Assembly (NCBI RefSeq): GCF_000189635.1
Contig: NW_002476290.1
Location: forward strand, 1 to 64,000
Length of the DNA: 64,000 nucleotides
Direction: 5' to 3'
From: Tetrahymena thermophila SB210
Lineage: Eukaryota > Ciliophora > Oligohymenophorea > Hymenostomatida > Tetrahymenidae
Of this stretch, positions 18,629 to 47,417 are shown piece after piece. Both the position numbers and the translations under genes were made by a program. The notes below the pieces were generated by a model that saw nothing but the letters and a program-made list of their open reading frames with translations, made no database searches and was not told the origin of the DNA. Positions within the stretch are counted from its first letter, which is position 1, and each line of letters begins with the position of its first letter.

Positions 18629-19270
18629 TCACTCTCTCTCTTCCTCCTTTATAGAATCAGCGGGCTGAGATTTGGGAATTTTTGCTATATGGAGCTTTTT
18701 ATAGAAAGCCACATTATTGAGTAAGTCATGGTTTGTGAAGCAGCGACTCAGGAAAAGGATGACGAGGAGATGAATAACTTTGTCTTTAACTCTACTTTTG
18801 TAAAGCCATTCAATTGCATAGATTTGCAAGAAATACTGGAATTGCTTACCATACCTTTCATTTTTGATGATCCTTTACAAGTAATTATTATTCACCTAAT
18901 GGCGATCGCAGAATCTCTTGAACTACTTGATTATGTCGAAGCTGCTCTTGCTGAGAGTGTCGATGCATTCCAACACCAGTCCATCGCTGTTAGTGCTGGT
19001 CATGTATTTGATGAAAGCTTTGATAATGTTTTTTACATTATTGGTTGTGTTGTTAAATTAATTAAAAGATTAAATCAAATCTTCATCGTCTTATTATGAA
19101 AAACCCTTCCAATTATCGATGAAATAGGTGTAAAGCATGACCAAGTAGTCATAAAACTCCTTCTCGTCGCACTCAGACTAGAGATGGGGTGAATTAATCT
19201 TCTCACAAGCGATCAAATTGAAGATCTAAGGTTGAGTGAGCTCTTCTTCTTAGATGTGTTGTTCACTCAT
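18629..19270 (-). CDS. Unknown 213-aa soluble protein, highly-expressed-type codons
   Basis: A single exon from ATG at 19270 to TGA at 18629, with several TAA/TAG Gln codons. The N-terminus is acidic (MSEQHIQEEELTQPQIFNLI). The body is predicted helical, with segments such as EFYDYLVMLYTYFIDNWKGF, NNVKNIIKAFIKYMTSTNSD and VIHLLVILFLSRCFTNHDLL. The last is hydrophobic but followed by charged residues, so I do not call it a membrane segment with confidence. The C-terminus is charged (SIKEEERE). Codon choice is richer in C and G at third positions (CTC, ATC, GAG, AAG) than in most genes here, suggesting strong expression. I do not recognise the family. Confidence 0.8.
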
Positions 19271-22200
19271 AATTTTTTTGTTTGTTTGTTTGCTTTATTA
19301 TTTGTTTTGAAAAAGGTATGGGAAATAAATGAATTTATTTATTTGATAGTTGTTAACCTTAAGCAATAAGCTAGCAGTTGCTTCAAATTTAATAATTGAT
19401 TTTATTTGATTTTTTTTTGTTATTATTCTTATTCTTTTTATCAAGGGAATAAGCACGCCGACAGACTTTTAAAGTTAAGTAAGACGGGAAAAAAATATGG
19501 AATTTTTTTAATTATTATTTAATGAAAGTATACTTTATTCCCAGTATCTCTTTTTTATTGTGGCTCTAATGTATCTTTAGCTTTCTCTTTATCTGTGAAT
19601 TTTTATTCACTCTCTCAAATTTGATGTCTTTATTCAAATTTATTATTTTTTTTTGAAGCCTTATTTTAATTAATTATTTTTTATATCTTTCAACCCAATT
19701 TTTAAAACATTAATCCAATTATAAAAAATTTCTAAATTTCATTCATTTTATTAGCAAATCTATTCAGAATCTATTAATCAATTTTCAACTTATAATAAAT
19801 CAATAAAAAATTCACTTATCCATTACTTTTCTTTTAATAAAAGCAAGCATATCCTCTTTTTCTTTCAACGAAAAATCTAAGCAAAAGTCCTAATTTAAAT
19901 GCGCCTTTTTTGGATTCTGCATGAAATTATATATTAACTCGCACCTTACAATTATTGTTCCGCTACTTCTTTCTATCCACATAAAAATATAATCTAATCA
20001 ATACATTATCATATTCCACAAAACAAAATCATAAATTTATTCATAAATAACACTTTTATGGTAGTGATGTATTTACATCAAAATAGATAAATTATTATTT
20101 CCAAGCATAAATCTGATTTTAGAAATTCTAACTTTCTGTCTCAAAATGTTTCTTTACTTGCTTGCTTTATTTATTTAATTTCTGATTTATTTTAAAATCT
20201 TACAAGAGTAGAGGCTTTTTTTCCTAAATCAATCCAGTTATAAAAAAGCAAATTTATTGCTATAAAAATATCTCCAATGTTCTCATTACTTACTGTATAC
20301 TTTTTTTAAATTAATTTTAACCAAAATTGTTCTCAAATTTAATGGTTCTCTTTTTAAATGTAGAATTTCCAAAATTAACTTTTCATATTGCTTTTGCTAC
20401 ACAATTTTAAGAAGTGAATGGCTTAGTAGCATTTCAAAGTTTTACTTATTTGATCCACATCTAAAAATAAACAAAAAGAAGAAGTAATCCTAACTCGATA
20501 AAAATATTGTTTCTCCAATTAAAAAATCGGACCTCAAAACAACAAGAAAAAATACAAATCTTCAAACTGATATATATTTCTTTACTTTTCTCTTAAATAT
20601 TTCTAAATACCTTACTGTAACCAAAAAATTACCTAAAATATTATCTATTCTAACAGATATTTGCTTATTCTGCTTCATGAAGTCTTATCTAACCAAATAA
20701 AATATTTCTCATAAACTTAGAATGCGTATTGAAGAATATATTTTTATTTTTTTACGGGTTTGTACAAAAAATCATTAAAAAATATTGGTAATGATTGACA
20801 AAAAAATACGAATTATTACTAAAGGCAACTTGATCAAAATAGAGTTGTAAAATAAAATTCTTAGCTTTAAAAAGCAAGACGCCAAAATTAGAGCATGATA
20901 AAGTAATAACTTGCACTTTTATAATGTTGAATAAGCAAGAAATTTTAAGCGAATCCCATTTTTTTTCATTCATTTTAATTAATAAATCGCACAAGCATAC
21001 AAACAAATAAGCAAACATACATACATAAATACGCACATACTTTTTTACATTAAACTCGTAAATGAATTAAATTACACTGAAATAAAATTTTGCATTTAAA
21101 ATTAATTAAAAATGAAGGTGAAGAAATTTTAAAGTAATTAATTATTGTTTCCTTGAATGGGTATTTTCTTATTGCTAGAAAATTAACATCAAATTTAAAT
21201 TTACGTTCAATTAATAATTACTTATTGTCAATTCAATGATTAACTTTTATACTCAATACCTGTACACAATTAATTATTAATATTTTATTTATGTTATTCC
21301 CCAAACATAAATAAATAAATAAGTAGTCTGCCAAAAACTATCAAGCAAGATAAAATATTAGTATCATAAAAAAAATAAAAATTGGATTTATTGATTGCTA
21401 AAATGGATGCGCTTAACAAACTTAATTGAGGAACCTCTACCTAAAATAGCATCTTACTAATTCTACTACATTTATATCCGTTTCTGCTGAACTTTTCAAG
21501 CACTAACTCTGATAAAAATACATTAATTATTAGCTTTAAGACTTGATGATCATGTTTTTTTGATTACTCCTCTATAAAGGTTTTTCTGCAAAATATTATA
21601 TTGACAATAACAAAATCTAAAAATATTCAAACAATACAATTAATTTGTACTATTAAAAAAAGCTACCTCAAAATAGCATAAAAATCAAGCGCATCTTATC
21701 CAAAAGAAATTAAATTATCATCCATACATTTATATATTACAGAAACATATTACGAATTTTTTTCAGATAGAAATAATGATGATAATTTAAACTCTATATT
21801 TTTTTAATTCATATTAAACCTTTTTAAAAATTCTACATTAATTTTATTTAAAAATTTTTATCTTTGATTATTTCATATTTAATAAAATAGCCCGCTTTAT
21901 TTATTTATTTTTTCTCATATTACTAATTATGAGTCAGCTACTTACCTACCTCGTTAGTATATACATACATATAATCAATCATTCAAATAATCACTTTTTA
22001 ATATAAATTATTTAAACAAATGATCTATCTATTTTCTTCTAAGAAAAGCTGAAGTTGATTTTGTAATAACTTGAGTTATAAAAATAAAATTATCGTCTAA
22101 CATTATTATTTTCCTTTATATTTTTTTTGGATGAAAAAATTCATTTATTTTTGCAATAAAGCTTATTTATTATTCTATTTAAATCATTTAAAATTTTATT

Positions 22201-30717: not shown

Positions 30718-33700
30718 TCAAATCTACATATCTTACTATCCTATCTAAATAGCCACTTATTAGCTGTTATTTAGGTTATTTATATTATTTTAATTTGGAT
30801 TGCTTTCTTAAGGATACTCATTTAATTGTGGACTGTTATTAATTTATCTTTCAGGAGTGTCTTTCTTTTTGTGATTTTCCTTTTTCAAGTTACTTTTCAT
30901 GGAATTTACTAAATATGGAAGAGCATATTTTTCATATAACAATGTGATTGTCATATTAGCAAGACAGTAGATGCCAATAAATATTCTCCAATTATAAGGC
31001 ATTACTGAAATTGTTTTGCCTTTTTTTTCAACAGAATCTTTAATCTTTTACAAAAAAATATAATTTTTTTATTTATTTATTTATTTTAATTTTATTTACA
31101 TCGAAAAAGCTCTTGAAATCATCTTAAGTCCAGAATATTGTAAGTACAGACAAAAACAATATAGCAATAAAGAATAGTGTAAAGCATAAATTGGTATAAA
31201 ATGGCTTTTTGAAAACTGATCCAATCGAAAAAGAAATTACTACAGCTATGTACTGAATATTAGTAACCCAGAACAAAGTCTTTTTTATTTTTAAAAAAAA
31301 TATTATTTGCATTTTTAGATAAATAACTTAATAATTAATTAGTCTGTTTTACTGTTGAGTCATAGCATTCACTGACGGTTTTTAAGCTCTCAATTTCACT
31401 CTTATCATACATATCTACACTATCTATATACCAATCCTAACCCTTAAGTACCATTACAGCTATAATCTAATTATACAAATTTTGAATTAAATTTTAAATA
31501 AAATTATTAATATTAAATTCAATTCAAACTATTTTTATTTCATAAATTGATTTAAATTAAATTCGTTCAAACGTTTTTAATTTCATAAATTATTCTCTTA
31601 AATTTATTTTTAGGTTAATTACTTAGAATATAATTTGAATGGATGTCTATCCTACAACTGAAGTAATAACTTCGTGAGAGATTAAATTGGCTGTTGGTGT
31701 TTTGTGAGTCAGTTGATCGGAAGCTTCTGTAAGGCCAAGCATAAAAGCTAGTGGTAATATAATGAACAAATCCCAATATAGGAATTACATGTCACTTGGG
31801 ATACTATTACAGACATATAAAATAGTTGTTGTTGTACATTAGATTAAGCTATAAAGCGCCATATATTTAAAGCATTAGAATGAAGTTACAAGTGATGCTC
31901 TTCCCTCTCTCAGGATTTTTTCTATACAACTAATATTTTGAATTTTACTAGTAAAAGATGCTGCTATTGAAGCCTCAGTATCACTTAGAGAGACACCCAT
32001 ATCTGCATCTTTAAGAGCTCCACAATCATTTGCTCCGTCACCACACATAGCTACAAAAGTATAATTGATTGGGTCTTGTCTTTGAAGTAGTGAAATAAGC
32101 TATTGTTTTTAATCTGGTTTCATTCTTGCATAAACCTTAGCATGAGTTAGGATACCCATCAAGAGAGTAAGATTAGTTTCCTAATTAAGAGGATTCATGT
32201 ATTTTTCAAAAAAATTTCCTGTGATTGTTAAATCTTAATTCAATAAAGGTTCGAGATCGCTTTCTTTCCTCAATTAAATTTATTGGTTGTTTAAAGTGGT
32301 AACTTTTGTTGTTATAGAATAGTCTAGTATCTGTATAGGAGTTTCAGCTTTTATTATTGAGCAGTTCTTGGCCACTTAAGTTGCAGTTAATGCGTTATCA
32401 CCTGTTATCATTATTACAATTATACTCTTCGATTTTAATAATTAGATGTGCTCACTTGTAACAGTTTTTAGCTTATTCTCAAATATCAAAAAGCCAGCAA
32501 ACACTTACTTTTGTTCAAAACTATTTCTCTCCTATTCTAAATCAATCTCTTTCAGCTCTTTAAAGCTTAAACCAATCACACGGTAACCCTTTAAAGTATA
32601 TTACTAAAGAACTTCCTCATAATTTTAAGGAATGCTCCATTTCTCACAAATACTCTCAATCTTTTCAGGAGAACCTTAATTTTCATAATTTATAAATATT
32701 TTTTAGATTTATTTATTTATTTTAACTCAGCTTGATTACTTAAATAGAGTAAAAATATTACTTTTTAATTATTACTTAAACATAAAAAGTTATTTGAAAA
32801 ATATTAATGTTAAAATTAGCATAAAAATAGAATTAAAGTAAAAAAAATTAATTTATTTATTTATTTGATTTACCTTTTGATAAAACAAACTTTTGATTGT
32901 TATAAATAGCGAGGACTGACATCATTTAACACTCTGATTCAAATTAGAATCTTTTGATTAATTTAATTTAGCTCTAAGATGATTCTTTGGTAATTTAAGC
33001 AATTATAGGCAGTCCTTATTCTTTTTAATTTGGTTCTGATTCTTAAATGGAATAATTTGTTTACTTAAACATCTCTATATCCATAGGATCTCCTAACATC
33101 TATCCTTTTAGCAGCATGATGCTGTGACATGAAGCTGTAATTATTTTTTGCATTTCACTATATTCATTTTCTTACTCTGAAGAGAGATTTTCTATATCAG
33201 CTTCTTCAAATTTAGCTTTGTTGCACACCTTAATACATTTAAACGTTAGTCCTTCTTCAGTAAGTGTTCCTGTTTTATCAAAGCAAACAGTCTTAACCTT
33301 ACCACAAACATTAATTTTTTGAGGATTTACACAAAAAATTTAGCTCTAGCTAAGTCTATATTTTAAATAATTACAAATAAATCAGAATTTGAATAAAAAT
33401 TTTGTGTTACCTTTTTAGGGCAAAAGAAATTCCAAAGGAAAGCGCAGTTGGAAGTGCTGGTGGAACACTGATTGTGATGAGATCTAACGCTCTAACTATT
33501 ATTTCAGATATTTCCATATAACCGTTATTGTAAGCAACAATGAAAGAAGGCACTGATATAAGGAAACTTAAAAATGCAATTGAGGCTAACACTAAAATGA
33601 ATTTAATAGAATCAGCATAAAATGACAGTTGGCTGTGTTTTTTTGGGTACATAATTGATCTTATTAAATTGCCTTTTAAAGTCTCAAACGAAATACGAAT

Positions 33701-35264
33701 AGCTTGTGTTCTTAGATGATTTTGAGATAGAAGCTTGCTTCCTGCATAAATTATAGTTTGTTTATTTTCTATGAATAATGAATCAACATTTTCAATATGA
33801 GTTTTTATGACAGGAATACTTTCTCCTGTTAACATGGCTTCATTTACAATTGCACTTCCTTCGATTATTACTAAATCACAAGGAGCAACGTGGTCCTCTT
33901 CTAAATAGACAGTATCTCCAAATACTATTTGTCTGGAATCTATGATTTAAATTTAATTATCTCTAAGAACATTAAACTCCCCTGATTGATGACTTATTTC
34001 TTTAAGCTTTCTAATATTTCTTTTAGCCTCTCTCACTTCCAAAAAAATACTGACAACAGAAGAAAAGAGAATAACAGATGCATAAATACGATATTCATCA
34101 TAATACCACAGACTTATACTAAATATCTAAAAAATGTAAAAAGGAGAAAGTATTTCATCAATAATAATTCTAAAAGCGCTTCTTTCTGGAATATCAGTTG
34201 AGTTTAAACCATTTTTTTTAATTGTTTCAACAACCTAGCCTTCACTAAGTCCACCCTAAAATTAAGAGATGAGTTGCTTATTAGTAAATTAACTCACTTA
34301 ATCACTTAATGGCATTATCTGATTTAACTCTTCATAAAATGCATAACGATAATAGCGATACATAAACATCTAAATTATAAAAATAATATTGAATCTTTTG
34401 TAAATTATAAAACTTAAATATCCTCAATAATTTATTAATTTATTGCATTAAAATTGATGTAATAAGTCTTTAAACTTTATAAACTTCAAAATAAATAAAA
34501 AAATAATTTTTAAAAATTTATTCAAAAGATATTGTAAGAATGTTTGTATGTTTGTTTGTTATTCGTTTTTTTATTTTAAAGGGAAATCAATTTTGCTTTT
34601 TAATTGATATTTAGAAATTAAATATTTATGTGTGTTAGTTAGTTACCTTAAGTCTCCTACCTTGAGGCATTATAATCTGAAGCTATTCAATCTAAATATC
34701 AAAGTCTATTTTAGTAATTTACATAAAATAAATTATAATTTTAATTTCTTATTCATTTTTTTACCTGGACCATATATTGCTACATAGTCAGCTTATTCGA
34801 TTTATACTTCTTTATATTGAAGAAAGATTTTCCAATTAAATTTCCATCTCAGAATCAAATAAAAGAATCCAAGTGTAATAACATATAAAAAGTATGTGAA
34901 ATATAGGGACAGGGTGGCTTACTTTAGGGGTATAATTTACTAAATCAATCCCTCTTCCTAAATGTTTTGATAAAGTACGAAATTAGCTCCCCTTTTAATA
35001 CCCAGTTCATTATTTGATTAATTCAATATGCGACTATTTTTTATAAATAGAAAGATAATAATTTGAAATTTAACAAAATTAAAATGATTTATTATCAAAA
35101 TATTAAAAATGATCTTTTCATAGGAAAGAGAAAACTTAAATTCAATTATAAAAAGCAAAAAACATCTCATAATCGTAAAAAGTTCAGCATTTTTATTGAA
35201 TGCAAAACTAATATATTAATTTTTATTCTCACTCTTTTTCTTGGTATTGTTCAGCCCTTATCAT
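30718..35264 (-). CDS. P5B-type transport ATPase (ATP13A family), ten exons
   Basis: Exons: 35264-35233, 35033-34765, 34705-34647, 34369-34298, 34255-33411, 33355-32874, 32674-31623, 31466-31353, 31279-31100 and 31044-30718. All phases agree and give 1143 aa. P5B pumps are ATP-driven transporters of late endosomal/lysosomal membranes; human ATP13A2/3 move polyamines. Hallmarks in order: an N-terminal membrane hairpin ([20 protein letters not shown]) then [15 protein letters not shown] in the actuator domain; [13 protein letters not shown], whose PPALP marks P5B rather than P5A; the phosphorylation site [19 protein letters not shown]; and [20 protein letters not shown]. The cytosolic C-terminus after the last membrane span is basic then Asn/Gln-rich. 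The catalytic Asp is present, so it should be active. Substrate cannot be told from sequence. Confidence 0.95.
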
Positions 35265-36386: not shown

Positions 36387-39300
36387 ATGAGAGTGAATAG
36401 TTAAAATGAAAAAACAGAGAATATATTGACAACTATGAGGGCAGGTACAAGCGAATATCATAATATTTAGTTTACAGCAGGATCTAATTTATAGCAATCG
36501 TTGGAGTCTCAAAAAGACTTAAACAAGTTAGAAACAAATCAAAATGAATTAGCAAAATCTTAAAAGAGCAAGAATGCTAAATCTAGCATTTAAAGATAGA
36601 TTGGATTAGGCCTTAAGGATTCAGAAAACAGCGTTATCAGCGAATCTTTCAATAGGTATAATCATAAAATAAATGTTACACCTAATGCTAATAATTATAA
36701 GCATAGTAATACATAAAATATGAATTAAAGCTTATTTAAAAGAAACAATACCTAGAAGCCATCAATTAACTAATTTTCATTTTGGTCAGTCGTTTAAATT
36801 CGCAAAATGATGGAGAGAATTAAAAAAAAATATTCATATGCTAATTTAACTAGCTTGCAATATGAGCTGATTGGAGACAAAAGCGTTTATCATCATAAGA
36901 AAGAAACGTTTAAAGAAAAATATGGTTACAATTAGAACTAAGAAGAAGAGTTACCTAGGCTTTTTAATAGAGTATCTGAATGTTGCAGAAAAACTTTAAG
37001 GTGTCATCATTTAAAAAAACGCATACAATCGTATTTTTAAAATTCAGTTGACTTTATCCCTGTTTTTAATCCTTCAAATCCTTTGAAGTTGTTTTGGGAT
37101 TTTTTAATCAGTCTTTCTCTTTTGCTATTCTTTTTTGCAGCACCTATTCATATTGCTGTTTCATCTCCTATAACATAAATTGTCGAATAAACTTTACTTT
37201 ATGTCTGTTTAGTATTGATAGTTGTAGATACTATTGTTTCCATTAATACAGGATATTTCTCGAAAGGTTAAATTGTGACAAACAGATTCACAATACTTTA
37301 ATTCTATTTAAAAAATTAATTATTTGTGGATATTATTTCAATAGTGCCCTTTTTCTTTACTATTCCATAAAGTAGTTATTCTTTCTTTCCTTCTATACTT
37401 ACTTTGCTAATTTTTATAAAATTTGGAGACTTTTCAAAGATATTCAAAAAGCTAGAAGAGTAGTTTCTATTAAGACCAACAACTACTAATATTGTAGAGC
37501 TTCTAAAGCTTCTTTTTGTGCTTTTATTTGTTGCTCATCTTGGTGCATGTGTTTGGATGTTTGAAGGATTGTAGTCTAATTAGTAATACAAATGGTTTCT
37601 GACTGATAAATTAGATGATATGTGGTCTCCTTAATGGTTAGACCTGTATGTGAAAGCATATTATTTTAATACTGTAACAATGGTTACAGTTGGATACGGT
37701 GATATTTATCCTGTAAATAACTATGAACGTATACTATCTATAGGAACTATCTTAGTAGCATGCTGTATTTTCGCCTATATGTATATGAATTAAGCTTTTT
37801 AAATTAAATTCTAAGAATTGTCAAATAATTTGAAAAAACAGAAAAATGAAAATCAATTATTTTTAATTTCCCCCATTTAAAATAGATAAAATTTTATTAG
37901 AATTGATTCCAAAAAAAAAACACACGCTTTTATTTGAATCAAAGAAATATCAAATTGTCTTTACTATTTTTAATTTACAATTAAGATTGTAATTTTTCAA
38001 ATGGTAAATTGTTATTTTTACATTCTGAATTTAGTTAGAATTTTCAAAAATTTTAATTTTTTCTCGTCAATATTCTTAATTTTATTAATCATAGTAAATT
38101 CTTTCTATAATCATACAAACAAACAAATTAATTACTTTATCTTAAGACAAATACAACAAATACTTTTAAAATATAGAGTTAATTCAATAGGAAACATTTT
38201 TTAAGATTTCTTCAGACACGCTTAGATAGTTAAGGAGAATTTTTATACAATTAACAATTATATGGAGAAAAAAAATATCAGTTCTCAACTGAGAAATAAT
38301 ATCAAAGAGTATTTGAGTTATTACTGGGATGAAGAAAGAGGTAATTTAACAGAAAAAGAATAGAAAATTATTTGCTAGCTGCCTGAAAGTCTTAAAAAAG
38401 AGCTAAAAGTAGAAGCTAACAAGATAGTATTAAAGGACAATCCAATTTTTCATCAAAATTTTAGCAAATTTATAAATGATAAAATTTGTGGAATTATTTA
38501 AGAACAAAGATGCCATCCAGAATAAATTATTATGAAAGAAGATGAATAGGATGATTGTAGTATTTACTTCATCTAAAAGGGGAGAGTAGAAGTATTCATT
38601 AAATAGCTTCATCCAGATGGTAAAAAAAACAAAACAAATTTTATTTATTTTGTTCAGCAAATTAAAAATTTAATTTTTTAGTGTAAATTCATTTTAAAAA
38701 TAATTTCACTAATTTGAATGAGAGAGATCTTTCTATTATTATTATTATAAAATTTAAGAAAGTCTTTTTAATCATTTTAATAAAAGACAAAACCAAATCT
38801 TCTTACTGTTTTTTCAATTTTAATATTTTTAACAAAAATTTAAATTAATAAAAATGCATTTTTACCATTCAAAAAAGGTACTTTAGCCACTAAGTCTATA
38901 ATGATTCTTGAAAAGGGGCAGTACTTCGGGACTTATGGGTTTTTTACAGGGTTGACAAGAAAATAAAGTATTCGATGCATGGAATTCAGTTAGTTTTTGG
39001 TGATTAAGAGAAGTGATTTCATTGAAACTTTAAAATAGTTTAGTGATGATTATGAAAGGTTTTGTATGTTGAAAGATTAACTCATGTTTAATTCTAAAAA
39101 CAGTGGGATTGATTAGTCTTGTTTTGGATGTAGTAGTAAAGACCACTTCTTTTTAGAATGCCCTGCAATTCATTATGCTCCAAACCAGCAAGAGATAATT
39201 AAGAAATATAATTTTACATCAACTCATCATGTCAGAAGATAGAAGAAAAGAAATTTTACTAAGTATTTTTTAAAATGTTTTGATAAAATAATTAATTAAA

Positions 39301-42300
39301 ATTATATTTTTAATTAAAAAAAGATACCACACTTTAAAAGAAATGGATTAGACATTTAGAGATGGCATTAAGTTTATAGAATAAAATGAGAGTTTTTTGC
39401 TAGAATAAGACTGGCTGTAAAGTGTTAGCGAAGATGAAATAAGTGATGATAGTAATAGTGATAGCTACAGTGATAGCAGAGAAGCCTTAGATCATGTAGA
39501 TAAGAATCATGTGTTAACTATATTCAGTCAATTACCCAATACAAACAGTTCTAATTAGCTATAATAAACTGCTGTATTTTATAATCATGAAAAGTAATAG
39601 AATTAAGCAAACCAAAACGATTCTAAAATAGTCAGCAATCTCAATTCTGTTAATAACATGTAATTATATTTATTTCTTTTGTTTTATTAAAATTTTAAAT
39701 TATTTTTTTTCTTCTAGAGATGCTAGTTTAAAGACACATTTAATTGAAGAACCTTCAAGTAATAAAGCATAATAAGTTATTTCTTAAGCAAACAAAGAAC
39801 GTGATGATTTCAATTTAAGTGAAGCTAACCCTTCACCAATATCTAAGCTCAAAAAGGTTAATTCAGAAATCGATACTGAATTAAGTGTTTGCTAGAAGAT
39901 TCAGTCAACCTAAAAAATTAAATTAAATCCTCACAATTCAATCTTTTAGCAAGGTAAAATACTTATAAATATTTTTTAATTTTTTCTAAAAGTTTTTTTA
40001 TTTTCTTTAAATTAATTTTTATCTTTAAGAATTTACAAAAAATAATTTTTTTTGTCTTTAATTAAAATTATTTAAATAAAAATAAAGATAAAAATCTAAT
40101 TTATTTAAAATTTATTTTAAAAGAGTAAGAATTTAAACACCACTAAAAGGAAGATTAATTATAATTAATTGAAAGGAAAAAAGAGTAAGATATTGCAAAT
40201 AATTAATTGAAGTTGTGTTAATCTTAGAATTTTATAGATGTATCTCTAGGACCTAATTAAGCCAACAGTTTTAATTTTACTTTCAAGCAGGATTCTGAGA
40301 AATTAATAAGAAGGTAGAGTTATTGGAATATGAAAGTTAATATCCCAGCTTCTAATAGAGAAATATAAATTCCTTTAGCCTCTGAATAACAACTTTAAGA
40401 TAATAAAGATAATTAAAAACCCAGAAAATAATCAAATACTATAAAAGAAAAAATCGGAAGTAGTAATAATCATATTATTAGTGACATTATTTCTAATGAA
40501 ACAAAATCATTAAATGGTGAAAATTATAGAGGTATTTAGACTTTTAATTAAATTGAAAGTCATTAGCATACGAATGCTTCTTTAGACCTATAATCAAACT
40601 TTACAAAGAGCAAAATACTCATGGGAGATATGCTTAATATGAGTGAGAGTGACAAATCTCTTCCACAGATTCAGAAAGATGAAACTAACTAAAATGAAAT
40701 GAATCTTTTATGTGTATTTGATATCTAAAGATTTGATGATATAGAAGGAATTTATGCTAAAAATCAGTCTCCAAAGTTTGTATCTAATAGCAACAGACGT
40801 TCTTAAGCTATGAAATTGGAAGACGACTTTATTCAAAACAATGGTGGAGAAACTGAAAGGGGATTATTAGAAAATACTAGTTTAAATGAAAGCTAAGATA
40901 TAAAATAAGCTTAATAAAAAGTAAATGGATTAACAATTTAACATAATAAATTATAAAACAAATAATTTGATGAAAAGGCCATTCTTAGATAGAATTTAGT
41001 AGAACCTATTAAAGATAATAAGGTAGAAAACAAAAGCAAAATTATTTAAAATTTAGATTAAAACTAAAAATAATTCTCTTAAAATGAACAAGAAAAGAAG
41101 ATTTTTAATATGAGAATACCAATAGAAAAAATAAATTTGTAAAAAGAGAGTTAATAAACAATCTAAGAAGATTTACCTGATATTGGTAACTATAAAAGAC
41201 TACCAGTTTAGAGAAAATAAGTAACTCATTAAACTTCTATTGAATTAAATCATGCTAAACCAATTGTGAATCAGCTTATAAATGCTAATTAAAGACAATC
41301 TGTTTAACATTTTCAAAGCAACTTTATGGTGAATAGTATTTAAACTTAGAACACTAATTCAAAGCCAAGTTTTACTAACTCAAATATTGCTACAAATTAA
41401 TAGCTCGGAGACCAGCATCCATTAACTAAGCTAGGAAAATCAAATAGGAATCTTATGATTGGAAGTCTTTACAATAAAGATAAATAATAAATTGGTAATC
41501 CTGATTAAATTGATTAAAAAGCTATAAAAAGAGAAAAGTTTTGGAAAAATGTTTAAAAGCATGGATACGATATGGGAGCTACTGATGTAAGCTCTCCACT
41601 TATTTTGAAGGCTAAAAAAAAGTTAGTGGAGATTAATAGTGAAGGTGGTTAGATATTTGGCGCAAATAACAAACTAATGAATAAAATAGCTTCGAATGCT
41701 AGTTAATTTAGTAATCCAACTCATGTAGAAGATAATCAGAGATTCACTCATAAAGGAATTAAGAGCTTAAAAAAAGATTACTCACCAACTTCTTCAATTA
41801 TGAGTTAAAAAAAAGTAGGAACTGACAATCACATACAAAGTCATGAAAGTGCATAGATTGAATAGTTAAAGTAAATGATTTCTAATTTACTTATGAAATT
41901 TGAAGAAACCAAAGGATAATCTCATAGTTAGATAAATGCAATGAGCAGGAAATCTGTTGTTTTTGACAAACACTCTCCATTGCTTTTAATGCATGACTAT
42001 ATTGAAGAAAATAAGCATAATTAAATTTAAAACTCTCCACTTATTTCAAAATATTAACTGCACAATCCTGCTTCACCTTAAATACCTTAGTAATATCCAC
42101 TTAATATTAGGAATTCAGATGATTTAATTAATAGCAACAACATGTATAATTAAGAATTAATTCAGGAAATAATTTTCGATACTATGAAAAACTACAGTAA
42201 ATACTTCCCTGAAAATAATATTTAATTTATTCAAAATGAGCTCAACAAGGTTTCTTAAGAAAAACTAAAATAAATGAAAAAATAAAAAATAAAGAAAGCA

Positions 42301-42663
42301 AAAGCCAATTATTAACTATTTAATTCTCTAGAGCATTTAAGCAGAGACCAACAATTTAAAAGAAGAATTCTCAATTCTAAATTTGCTAAATAAAGTTTGA
42401 TGCACAATACAAGATAAGAATAAAGTGAAGAAGAATTAAATTCTGAAAGAAGTCGCTCTAATTCTGGCTCAAATTCTAAGAGAAGATCGTTATTCTTTGG
42501 AATAGCTAATGAAAACTTTTCTCATGCAGTAAATTCTTTTAAAAATTAAAAACGCCAATCACTTAGTTAGTAATCGATTTCTACCAATCAAATACCTTAA
42601 ATAAATCAAGGTTCACATATAATTCCTCCTCCTGCATAAAAATTTTCCTAATTTAAGAACTGA
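36387..42663 (+). CDS. K+ channel with degenerate cNBD, CCHC zinc knuckle and long Gln/Asn-rich tail
   Basis: Proposed exons: 36387-37819, 38216-38619, 38878-39262, 39324-39659, 39718-39953 and 40124-42663; phases fit and give 1777 aa. A disordered N-terminus precedes membrane segments from about residue 232 (FWDFLISLSLLLFFFAAPI). The pore filter TMVTVGYGDIYP is near 435, which is K+-selective. S6 is followed by a C-linker (INNYMEKKNISSQL, EYLSYYW) and a cyclic-nucleotide-binding-like domain (IYFIQKGRVEVF, EKGQYFGTYGFF). The phosphate cassette lacks the usual Glu. Directly after it, C-x2-C-x4-H-x4-C (CFGCSSKDHFFLEC, 39120-39161) forms a CCHC knuckle. About 1000 residues of Gln/Asn/Ser-rich tail follow. 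The first intron uses a weak GTCAAA donor; reading through it ends at TGA 37935-37937. It is a paralog of the convergent gene at 43188-47417. Confidence 0.82.
39120..39161 (+). other. CCHC zinc-knuckle motif in the + strand channel
   Basis: Codons for C-x2-C-x4-H-x4-C lie about 20 residues after the end of the cyclic-nucleotide-binding-like domain. The spacing matches the canonical zinc knuckle of nucleic-acid-binding proteins. The same motif sits at the same position in the paralogous channel. Confidence 0.75.
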
Positions 42664-43187
42664 AAAAATAATTGAACATTAAAAAATAATATAAATAATC
42701 ATTTATAATTTTTGTTAATAAATTCATATAATTAATTCTTCTCTCAATCAAATAAATAAATCATGATTTGTATTAAAATTATTAAAAATATTTAAATTAA
42801 TTCAAAAAAACAAAATCACACAATTATGTAGAATGTTTTATAAATTAAATTTACAAAGTAATTTATCTAATTTATTTATTAAGTGATTTAATTATATCAT
42901 TGCTAATTTTAAATTAAATATGCTCATTTTTCTAATTAATTTTGCTTGCTACAAAAAGATAGTTATTTGTTTATTTTTATTATTTTTGAAATATTTTATA
43001 AATAAGCTATATGTATGTGAACCCTGATATCATAACCAAATAAAAAAACTTTTTAAAATTAAGAATATTTATAATTATTTTGGATTTAGTAAATAAATAA
43101 ATTTCACTAGATTTCTTAGATTTCTGAGAATTTATGTTGAGCATTTTTATTGTTTTGAAACACATTTTTTATATTTAGAATACTTTA
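42664..43187. other. Gap between the convergent channel genes
   Basis: About 520 bases separating the TGA codons of the two channel paralogs. AT-rich, with no exon; it should contain both 3' UTRs and polyadenylation signals. Confidence 0.5.
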
Positions 43188-46100
43188 TCAGTTTTATTAG
43201 CTATTATTTTTAGGAGAGTTGTTGCTCGAGATAGAGTAAGATTTTTTAAATGATAATTTTTTATTTGAATTTATTTTTTTTATTAGAGGAGCAAATTTTA
43301 CATTAAAGATTGAGTTTTTGAGAGTATCAGTTTATGATTTTAAACCAATATTTTAAGACAACGTTTGCAGCTATATATCATTTTTATTATAATTATAATC
43401 GTCATTATTATTTTATTCATTGAGGTTTTAATAAGAAGTAATCTAGTTATCATTAATCAAATTATTTTTGTTGGAAGTGCATATGGATACTACTTCATTT
43501 TAACTATTATTCATTGGAGAAGTCACATTTTGATTATTGTTAATGTTAAACTGAGAATTAAAATTGAGTGGAGAATTAACAATTATTGATTTCTTTTTTG
43601 GTGAACCTTGAGTTTGTTAGCTTTCTTAAAATGATTACTTTAAAGCAGTATTTTCAAAAAACTTACTTTATTACACTTGATTTTGGAATTTTGAGATGGT
43701 TTTTGTGATACCTAATTAGAGTTTTAACTTTTTCTGAAGTTTACTATTTGAGTTAGGTTGAATAAATGAGGATTCTATTTCTTTACTATTGGTGTTGTTA
43801 ATATATCTTTGTAAAATTTAAGCTCTTCTCTTTTTTAAGTTAGCTATAATTCTATCATAATTATACTGGGGATAGTAAAACTTAAATTAATGCATCTTTT
43901 CAAAGTCGTCAAATATTTTATAATTTTGATAGCCTTGCAAATAAAATAAATGTTGTTAATCGTAGTCATTTTATTAATGCTAAATTTGGGTAGAATCTTA
44001 TTGTTAGTTTTCCTTTCGTTTAATGCATCGATTGCTACCTTCTTTAATTACAGCTAATTCAATATTTTATTTAGGTTGCAATTGATATTAATCATTTTAG
44101 GTACCTAAATCAGACTTTTTACCTTCTGCTTAATTATTTAAAGTTAATTATTGTTCACTATTTTAGTAGGATTTAAATTTAGATCCATCCTATTTTTGCT
44201 ACATATTATGGATTGATTCAATATGTTTAATTATTAGAGGCATTTACTATTTTTGCTCATTGTTCTAAACAAAGTTAAAGACAAAATTCTTCGCATGAGA
44301 CTGCTATTGATTAGCTATGTTTTAATCTTTGCTCGTCTAATGATTTTTTATGTTTGGTGTAAAACATAATGCTTAGTTATATTAAATGCTTTTCCTTGGT
44401 ACAGAAGTATTAAACCCAGTATTTTGATTTAATGTCAATCTTTTCTAAATTTTATTTATTTAAGAAGCTCTTCTCTCTCTTTATTCTTCTTGAATAGTGT
44501 TTGTGGTATTTTTTTAAATATGATCTTTTAATTCAATTTCTTATTTGCTTTATCTAGTTATAATATTTGGTGTTAGAGGAGGATCGTTTATCGTTTTCGC
44601 CCTCATTCTGCCCGAATTCAAGTTAAGCTAACTGTAACGAATTTTATACTCATTTCTTGGAGATCCTTCATCAATAATGCTGCTAGTTTTTTCAGAATTA
44701 AAGGTTTGCTTTGAAATACTTGCTTTTTTGTATGAAAGAGACTCAGGGCTTTTTAAATGAAAAGATTGATCTCTTATTGACATTTTTTTTTTAACAGCGC
44801 TATCTATGTAATTATCTTAGTAATTATGTTTTGCTTCATTATTTAAATTTTAGATGTCAATAAGTAAATCTTTTTTAGCGTTTTCAGAATTTTTATTGGC
44901 ATCTGCTTCAGAAAGCTTAAGACTTTTTTAAAAGCTAACTTCATTTTCATCTTCCTCATCTTAAACTTCATCAGTTTTAAATTTATTTTCTTCACTAGCA
45001 TCACTTGAGTTGCTTTATTCAATTTCATTTTCATAATCATCTTCTGAGTAATCAGAAAATGAACTAACAAATGAATACTCTTCATAGTTTAATACACTAT
45101 CGATATAATCTTGATTTTTTTAAATATATTCTAAAGCTGACTCTGAATAATAAACTATATTTGTTAGTGAATTTCTGTGTCTTTTTTTAGGCCATCTTTC
45201 TTTTTTTTTGCTACGCTCGATAATATCCGTAGAAACATTAAAGCGCGAAATCAAATTCAGTTTATTTGGGATGTAATGAACGTACTGGCAGTCATTCAGT
45301 GAATGGTCAAACTTCTTACAAGATTGACACTTTGTTCCTAAGAGAGTTAGATTGTTGTCGTTTATCAATGAATCGCGTATGAAACAAAATTTTTCATAAT
45401 CTTCTTAAAGGCTGTGCTGTCTCATTAAGTCAATAAAATCCTACCTATCTATGTAAAGTAACTTACAAAAATCTTTTGATTTTACGACAAATTTATGAGG
45501 ATTATCAGTAAAAAAGGACTCGAAACCAAAAGATTCTCCAACTCCAATTGTTTTTATTTTCTTGAGTATCATAAAATTTTGCTAATCATATTATTTTAAG
45601 TTCTAAGCAAATTGCAATTACTGTGGATTATTCTAATTAGCTTAATTCTGATCTAACATTTGGTTGTTTTCGTTATTGCTATTACCATCTTAATTAATTA
45701 TGTTAGACATAGGAAAGTGATAAATATCGAATTCGCCTTTTTCGACAAAAAAAACAACTCCTTTTCTACTCTCAGGACCTTGACTACAAACAATCGTTTG
45801 ATTAGGTGTTGCCTTAAACTCTTTAATGATGTGGATAATTTTTTGAATAAAAAAATCACTAAAATAATGAGTTAATAAGCTTGATTCATGGATAATTGTT
45901 TTATTTGCTTGAAAAAGTAATTCTTTTCTAAGATGATCGCTAAGCTGAGATATTATTTACTACTCCTTCTCAATTTGAGTTTCGTTCCATTCCTTCCAGT
46001 AATACTCTAAATATTCTCTAACCTCACTTTGTAAGTTACGTTGGATGTTTTTCTCTCTCATATATTGGCTTATTACCAGCATATTTTCTTTTCTTTTAGC

Positions 46101-47417
46101 GTTCTCTAAATTTAACTCATTCAAAATACTTCCAATACTATTGATTGCATATGCAAAAACACCACAAGTAAGCATCATTCCAATCATGCAAATAATCTCT
46201 TCAGTGTCATTTTATGGCACAGTATCACCATAGCCAACAGTAATCATAGTAACGGATGCATAATACTATGATCTAATATATTATGTCGACCATGGCTAAT
46301 TTTCTAGCTTATATGCTGTAATCCAAGTAACAGAGAGTCCGCTATTCTTGCCAACAAATAACCAAATGCAAGCAAAAATATGAGAAACAATCAAAACAAA
46401 AACTAATAGTTTTACAAGCTAAAGTAAATTGAGTTGCTTTCTTGTAACTTAGAATTACTCTTCAAGCTTAGTGAGCAATTTTGTGATTCTCATACCTTTT
46501 ATGAAGTAGAGTAATAAAACGATAGCTTCAAAAATACAAACAATAACATAAGTTTTATACGAACTTGTATAGGATGAAAACTTTTGGTCTTATCCTATTT
46601 TTAAATGCCATCTATGAAGCTCAAAAATCATAGCTTATAAGGTTAATATATCAGTAAATCCATTTTTTACTATGTATTTTTTGATAATGTCTTCTCTTGT
46701 TTTTACAAGTCTTCCTCTTTAATAGTATCCAGTGTTTGCACATATAACCATATCTAAAGACTACAAAACAATAAATACAACCATTAATGTGTAGTTATCA
46801 CCAGCATAAGTAGAAATACTATCATAAATATCTGTAATTCTAACTGAACAAATAAAGCATAGAATGAGTATTTTAACACACATACAGAAATCCCAAAAAA
46901 GCTTCCAAATTGAATTAGGATCTATAATTGGAAAATTTCCAATAGTGTATTAAATGGCTCGTTTAATGCAGCTCAAATTAAAGTTTCTCTATATCCCTCT
47001 CAAGATATCCAAGGTGTTTATTTATTGTTGCTGCTTATTCATTAATGATTATAACTTCTTTAACTTCCTCATTTAGCTTGCTTAAGCCTCGTGAATAAAA
47101 ATAGGAATTTCAAAATTAGAATTATTATCTTTGTCTTGAATAGTATTCACAGATTTTTCTGATATGTCTCCTACCAAATTATAATGATACTCATCTAACT
47201 TGTGAAACCTCCTAGAAGGTAACTTATCGATTAAATTCCTGATTCTTGTTTTGAGTTTAACATTCTATATTAGAGATTTTATACTAATTCTGTCATTTCT
47301 TTCTCGCTCACGCTCTCTCTCGTAAAATGTATACTGTTTCCTAAAAGAAAAATATTTTAAATTTTCCTTATCTTTCTTATCAGAATATTAGCTGTTACTC
47401 ATAAAAATCATCGACAT
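43188..47417 (-). CDS. K+ channel paralog with cNBD-like domain and CCHC zinc knuckle, single exon
   Basis: An uninterrupted frame from ATG at 47417 to TGA at 43188 gives 1409 aa. The order is the same as in the + strand paralog: basic N-terminus (EREREREERNDR-like, near 47310), membrane segments beginning near SIWKLFWDFCMCVKILILC, pore filter MITVGYGDTVP around residue 393, S6 (MLTCGVFAYAINSIGS), C-linker (SQYMREKNIQRNLQSEVREY) and cNBD-like fold (GVVFFVEKGEFDIYHF, GVGESFGFESFF). A Gln/Asn-rich insertion interrupts the cNBD, and the cassette arginine is not evident. The CCHC motif CQSCKKFDHSLNDC is at 45329-45288. A long Ser/Asn/Gln-rich tail ends in SNNSPKNNSQQN. Unlike its paralog it has no introns. 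It probably acts in the plasma or ciliary membrane; gating ligand unknown. Confidence 0.88.
45288..45329 (-). other. CCHC zinc-knuckle motif in the - strand channel
   Basis: C-x2-C-x4-H-x4-C (CQSCKKFDHSLNDC) follows the cyclic-nucleotide-binding-like domain at about residues 697-710, close to the position of the motif in the + strand paralog (about 694-707). All four metal ligands are present. Confidence 0.75.

Follow-up and report, generated by a model that had tools for sequence, protein, structure and literature searches.

The window analyzed here is a 64,000-nucleotide stretch of Tetrahymena thermophila DNA on contig G000:C228, and all own-genome comparisons were made against the corresponding 101-Mb genome of 445 contigs. 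When TAA and TAG are read as Q (code 6), the window shows open channel frames that belong to two convergent genes, gene 1 on the plus strand (36387-42663) and gene 2 on the minus strand (47417-43188). The splice model of gene 1 has at least six exons. Exon 1 (36387..37780, +), which is also supported by a code-6 open reading frame (ORF), encodes the N terminus, S1-S6, and the pore motif TVGYGD (37686-37703, residue 434). Exon 2 (38177..38619, +) can be aligned with gene 2 and covers the end of S6, the C-linker, and the first half of the cyclic nucleotide-binding domain (cNBD). Exon 3 (38878..39262, +) holds the second half of the cNBD, the last cNBD helix (DYERFC, residue 670), a putative zinc knuckle, and a basic tail; an alternative acceptor 9 bases downstream (38887) also keeps the frame. 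The remaining C-terminal tail (39324..42663, +), modeled from code-6 ORFs, is Q/N-rich and is split over exons at 39324-39659 and 39718-39953 and a last exon that runs to the TGA at 42661-42663. Gene 2, by comparison, is a single ORF (43188..47417, -; ATG at 47417) for a K+ channel of 1,409 amino acids. It contains the pore motif TVGYGD (46224-46241, -; residue 393), a cNBD with a long N/Q-rich insert, a putative knuckle, and a long Q/N-rich tail. The cNBD was placed at 45414..45790 (-, upstream edge approximate) by Pfam cNMP_binding (9.1e-07) and alignment, the Pfam-matched half being 45414-45557.

Pfam analysis of the spliced gene 1 protein returned Ion_trans (2.2e-13), Ion_trans_2 (3e-13), and cNMP_binding (5.8e-12). 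In gene 2, Ion_trans_2 was found at 4.7e-11, and Ion_trans fell slightly under its cut-off (24.8 versus 25). Both proteins thus carry cNMP_binding and Ion_trans_2 above the cut-off, and gene 1 also Ion_trans, which bears out the GYGD pore and cNBD-like domain ascribed to both genes by an initial sequence-only reading of this locus. Gene 2 aligns through the C-linker to CNG, SthK, and SKOR channels, placing a C-linker and a cNBD after S6. With pore, channel fold, C-linker, and cNBD present, the two genes are predicted to encode cNBD-bearing 6TM K+ channels of the CNG/HCN/KCNH/plant Shaker superfamily. They were previously described as convergent paralogs, and they are indeed convergent and paralogous. 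A recent duplication is not supported, each gene having closer relatives elsewhere in a 63-row tree, though not with strong support. The channel pair adjoins a partial P-type cation ATPase (33281-34369, -; E1-E2_ATPase, 8e-31), which lies alongside a piece of a haloacid-dehalogenase-type hydrolase (31527-32579). A DUF4441 domain (PF14536, 6.8e-31) is located at 18632-19456 (-).

Directly behind the cNBD, both proteins contain the motif CX2CX4HX4C, read from the sequence and supported by the family alignment. The putative zinc knuckle of gene 1, CFGCSSKDHFFLEC, spans residues 694-707 (39120..39161, +), and that of gene 2, CQSCKKFDHSLNDC, residues 697-710 (45288..45329, -), close to the shared position of about 695 noted earlier. 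These are the sole two matches in the window on both strands. The expected number is 0.02 (mean of 100 shuffles) and none of the shuffles gave two matches, which rules out a chance origin. In the 74-residue stretch that begins with the last cNBD helix, the proteins are 30% identical, and they have in common the four ligands as well as DH, HY, and PN; the knuckle has been kept despite its diverged surroundings, as had been proposed. Both knuckles have the ligand spacing of zf-CCHC (PF00098), and this Pfam family gave no match to either window protein up to an E value of 10. AlphaFold models of the C-linker-cNBD-knuckle region (three-sequence alignment; mean pLDDT, 40.6) and of the knuckle module (two-sequence alignment; mean pLDDT, 48.2) were too poor for ligand geometry. 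A Foldseek search with the latter, low-confidence model found no match.

The homology of gene 2 to CNG, HCN, SthK, plant SKOR-AKT-KAT, and KCNH channels covers the channel, the C-linker, and the cNBD (E values of about 1e-7 to 1e-21). In the best 59 of 69 matches the best-aligned stretch stops before the knuckle, and such stretches alone are not proof of its absence. To our knowledge, none of these families carries a CCHC knuckle. The module profile does match chain C of PDB entry 7W5Z ("Cyclic nucleotide-binding domain protein," 1,471 amino acids) over 63/63 positions with an E value of 2.2e-17. Like the window genes, this protein has a TVGYGD channel, a C-linker, a cNBD, and a knuckle, CYNCKKIGHISSSC, in the same order; unlike them, its nucleotide cassette, FGEISFFSGLSRKAS, is intact and its knuckle is of the Gly-His type. 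The genome of the window contains one place that is 95% identical to this protein over 188 amino acids. In their accessible parts, two papers describe 7W5Z as T. thermophila mitochondrial complex IV (PMC10060162, PMC10227065), one of them stating that its COX3 is mitochondrially encoded (PMC10060162), and these parts of both papers make no mention of a channel-like chain C protein. The sequence under which chain C is deposited, shared by two chains, is that of a K+-channel-like protein with a knuckle. This would be explained by a mislabeled sequence or by the presence of a channel-like protein within complex IV.

The module is widespread in the T. thermophila genome. A search with the 74-residue module of gene 2 scored at least 150 places, and a search with the 188-residue cNBD-plus-knuckle region of 7W5Z chain C at least 56. 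The two protein searches combined give at least 197 distinct places, with 9 common to both by position. Among the 128 places that were read, both window genes included, 127 have all four ligands at the exact spacing: 75/76 places of the first set (gene 2 query), 40/40 drawn from the at least 56 of the 7W5Z chain C query, 4 further places, one of which was found through the knuckle itself, and 8 places chosen by their pore. The one exception, L044, has three residues instead of four before the His. Two rows were removed before counting: L072, which is the same place as L019, and L006 (G000:C246:100623-103889, -), where an intron apparently interrupts the knuckle after the His and ahead of the final Cys. 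L070, with an intron just upstream and an intact motif, was at first removed and later counted again. The sequence-only reading would have been refuted if most orthologs had lost the ligands, and no such loss was found. Its view of the knuckle behind the cNBD as an extension shared by a family of ciliate K+ channels is supported by this count.

The first two sets (76 and 40 places) were selected by a similarity that includes the knuckle. The best control for this selection bias is the pore search, for which we took the top-ranked eight pore matches that had no module match among the places listed by the two protein searches and had not been read before. A knuckle lies downstream in 8/8 of these high-ranking channels; the control covers high-ranking pores, lower-ranking ones without a module match falling outside the count. 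Conversely, a pore motif was found upstream on the same strand at 49/56 loci with sufficient upstream sequence. When 115 knuckle DNAs were compared, all were distinct, with both TGT and TGC and both CAT and CAC in use at the ligands. Because the DNAs all differ and mix synonymous codons, the constancy of the protein is due to selection rather than to recent copying. In an independent Pfam zf-CCHC search of the genome, 45 of the 71 matches listed (above the cut-off) fall in channel modules, most of them assigned by position and not by reading; for two the assignment depends solely on a pore match that lies 0.7-1.1 kb upstream, and for another two solely on a cNBD match. Two of two sister modules also scored above the zf-CCHC cut-off. 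A further His at +17 (CPxxH) occurs in 97/115 channel knuckles and in 0/24 other knuckles of the genome and is a mark of the channel-knuckle family. The knuckle behind the cNBD thus looks like a family hallmark, as judged from these sequences, and not a curiosity of two genes. Outside this genome, no relatives were found in bacterial/archaeal or viral contigs, in scans that reach close relatives only.

Two more modules, both CFGCQQIGHTVDKC, lie beyond the window on its own contig (L107 and L108; G000:C228:76900-77600 and 83000-83700). Elsewhere, module and cNBD matches are found in tandem arrays on contigs C22, C33, C112, C145, C174, C238, C391, and C422 of G000, with many spacings of about 5 kb, which suggests local duplication.

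A knuckle on every cNBD was rejected, as 11 of the best 20 cNBD places had no module match in the stretch examined. From their cassette signatures, we take four of these to be PKA-R-like (L001, L003, L011, and L012) and two to be PKG-like (L010 and L020). The other five form a tandem cluster on G000:C428 (L002, L004, L005, L014, and L016) with a C-linker-like lead and a canonical-looking cassette. No such motif was present in the stretch read for this cluster, which makes it a natural control group; since it is without the motif, not every cNBD protein of the C-linker-like type needs a knuckle.

CCHC knuckles that bind nucleic acids have a Gly before the His, an aromatic residue after the first Cys, and a hydrophobic residue after the His. 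The window knuckles do not show this full face. Gene 1 has Phe after the first Cys (+1) and after the His (+9) but Asp before the His, and gene 2 has Gln, Ser, and Asp at the respective positions. RNA sensing, which the sequence-only reading had put forward, is made less likely for the window pair, where the Gly before the His is absent from both knuckles and gene 2 also lacks the aromatic and hydrophobic residues. A 75-member sample that includes the window genes (and near-copies) is similarly poor, with the Gly in 8/75, the aromatic residue in 27/75, and the hydrophobic residue in 33/75. In contrast, the other knuckles of the same genome have them in 20/24, 22/24, and 19/24, a control taken from 26 Pfam matches that, being Pfam-picked, leans canonical and draws 7/24 members from one locus; a hand count without these seven gives 15/17 for the aromatic residue and 13/17 for Gly-His. 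Lys and Arg are also fewer in the sample than in the other knuckles (0.95 versus 1.96 per knuckle). The 40-member group drawn with the 7W5Z chain C query retains far more of the face (Gly, 28/40; aromatic residue, 38/40; hydrophobic residue, 40/40), and this difference from the 75-member sample indicates two grades of knuckle within the family. By their residues, the 40-member grade could still bind a base, and the grade of the window genes could amount to little beyond a metal site, the Phe residues of gene 1 excepted.

These observations bear on the possibility that the knuckle is a nucleic acid module that tethers the channels to RNA, such as local mRNA, or through which RNA gates them. The face of the 40-member group and the Phe pair of gene 1 are consistent with such a role, as are the PDB matches that rank best after 7W5Z chain C, namely, the knuckles of TUT4/7, LIN28, retroviral nucleocapsid, and AIR2. 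These zf-CCHC proteins (PF00098) share the exact ligand spacing with the channel knuckles, which differ from them in sitting as a single copy on a membrane channel and in having the additional CPxxH; the knuckles of the window genes also lack the Gly before the His. The scarcity of the face and of basic residues in the 75-member sample and the fact that each module read has a single knuckle argue against an RNA module, which we regard as distinctly improbable.

A different function had been suggested by the nucleotide-binding cassettes, in which a Glu contacts the ribose and an Arg the phosphate of the ligand. Both cassettes were previously reported to lack the standard contact residues. This applies fully to gene 2, whose cassette, FGFESFFTDNPHKF, has lost both Glu and Arg; gene 1, FGTYGFFTGLTRKQS, has lost the Glu but retains the Arg. 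Neither gene thus has the Glu-Arg pair of the cyclic nucleotide-gated subset, and the knuckle could be imagined as a sensed-ligand site that replaces the cyclic nucleotide in members with a decayed cassette. The wider family speaks against this. Cassettes could be read in 63 knuckle-bearing members (from 75 loci with the exact motif and 4 chosen by their pore, minus 16 with an unreadable cassette), which were preselected for the exact motif with L044 left outside, so that ligand constancy rests on the 127/128 count and not on their tree. Both Glu and Arg are kept in 24 of the 63 and not in 39 (21/63 in a cruder count). On the 63-row tree, which was built from few columns and is weak at many of its forks, there are at least 10 changes of the Glu/Arg state, 4 of them being forced by well-supported branches. 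The state of the cassette has no significant association with the knuckle aromatic residue in this sample, where independent pairs are too few (12/24 versus 14/39; P = 0.30). As knuckles accompany intact and decayed cassettes alike, they are not a simple replacement for the nucleotide, and we consider this proposal of the earlier reading, which is otherwise partly supported, highly unlikely.

The last cNBD helix is the lid helix, which closes over the bound nucleotide in CNG, HCN, and PKA proteins, and the aromatic, Gly, and hydrophobic face of CCHC knuckles is used to hold a purine. The presence of this face in the 40-member group, together with the position of the knuckle immediately after this lid over cAMP or cGMP, raises the idea of a nucleobase-reading lid. 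Such a lid would grip either an RNA base or the purine of the cyclic nucleotide that is bound, and so determine ligand choice, and the window genes would be decayed descendants in which the zinc fold serves as a constitutive cap. The lack of a significant association between face and cassette in the 63-member sample counts against it, and we view it as a long shot.

By sequence, the putative CCHC knuckle extends the cNBD almost without exception across a very large radiation of Tetrahymena K+ channels. We favor, at about even chances, its interpretation as a zinc-stabilized cap behind the cNBD lid helix that would serve gating or assembly. The knuckle starts about 24 residues past the beginning of the last cNBD helix. 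It would constitutively bind one zinc ion and serve the lid helix as a rigid cap or docking knob, in contact with its own subunit, a neighboring subunit, or a partner protein. The knuckle would then belong to the gating ring both in members that still answer to a cyclic nucleotide and in those that do not, and the conserved His four residues after the third Cys (CPxxH) may be structural or an alternative ligand. A purely structural role does not demand the aromatic residue (38) and the Gly (28) that the 40-member group keeps, and this counts against the cap. So do the shortened spacing of L044, the missing zf-CCHC match of both window proteins, and the C428 cluster, whose cNBD is followed by no knuckle in the stretch read.

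Three Cys residues and one His behind a gating domain, more constant than the nucleotide cassette, would also suit a zinc or redox switch in which zinc loss or thiol oxidation alters gating. CCHC knuckles generally hold zinc very tightly, and this fits a structural site better than a sensor, making a switch rather unlikely. Docking of a partner protein, for targeting to cilia or cortex or for subunit choice among paralogs and with no role in gating, is an unlikely but somewhat more credible alternative. The surface between the constant ligands is variable (entropy of about 2-3.6 bits at inner positions) and so would be suited to pair-specific contacts. No partner is known, and a site immediately after the lid helix points to coupling with the cNBD.

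The two halves of this architecture, a cNBD channel and a CCHC knuckle, are of known kinds, and we have not seen their joining reported. Our literature search, with most subscription papers lying outside it, turned up no description of channels of this type with a knuckle. The accessible part of a study of Tetrahymena species-specific genes lists the CNBD among seven main domains and mentions no knuckle in the CNBD genes (PMC6564038). The two domains may already appear next to each other in databases where T. thermophila proteins are annotated with Pfam. According to the accessible part of PMC3341644, T. thermophila has 396 genes of the voltage-gated ion channel superfamily. A knuckle behind the cNBD at about 200 places (at least 197) would give a large part of this radiation a gating ring that differs from that of animal and plant channels. 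The knuckle is a handle for spotting the family in other genomes, and its mutation in T. thermophila, where there is an equivalent protein, could reveal a new form of K+ channel control.
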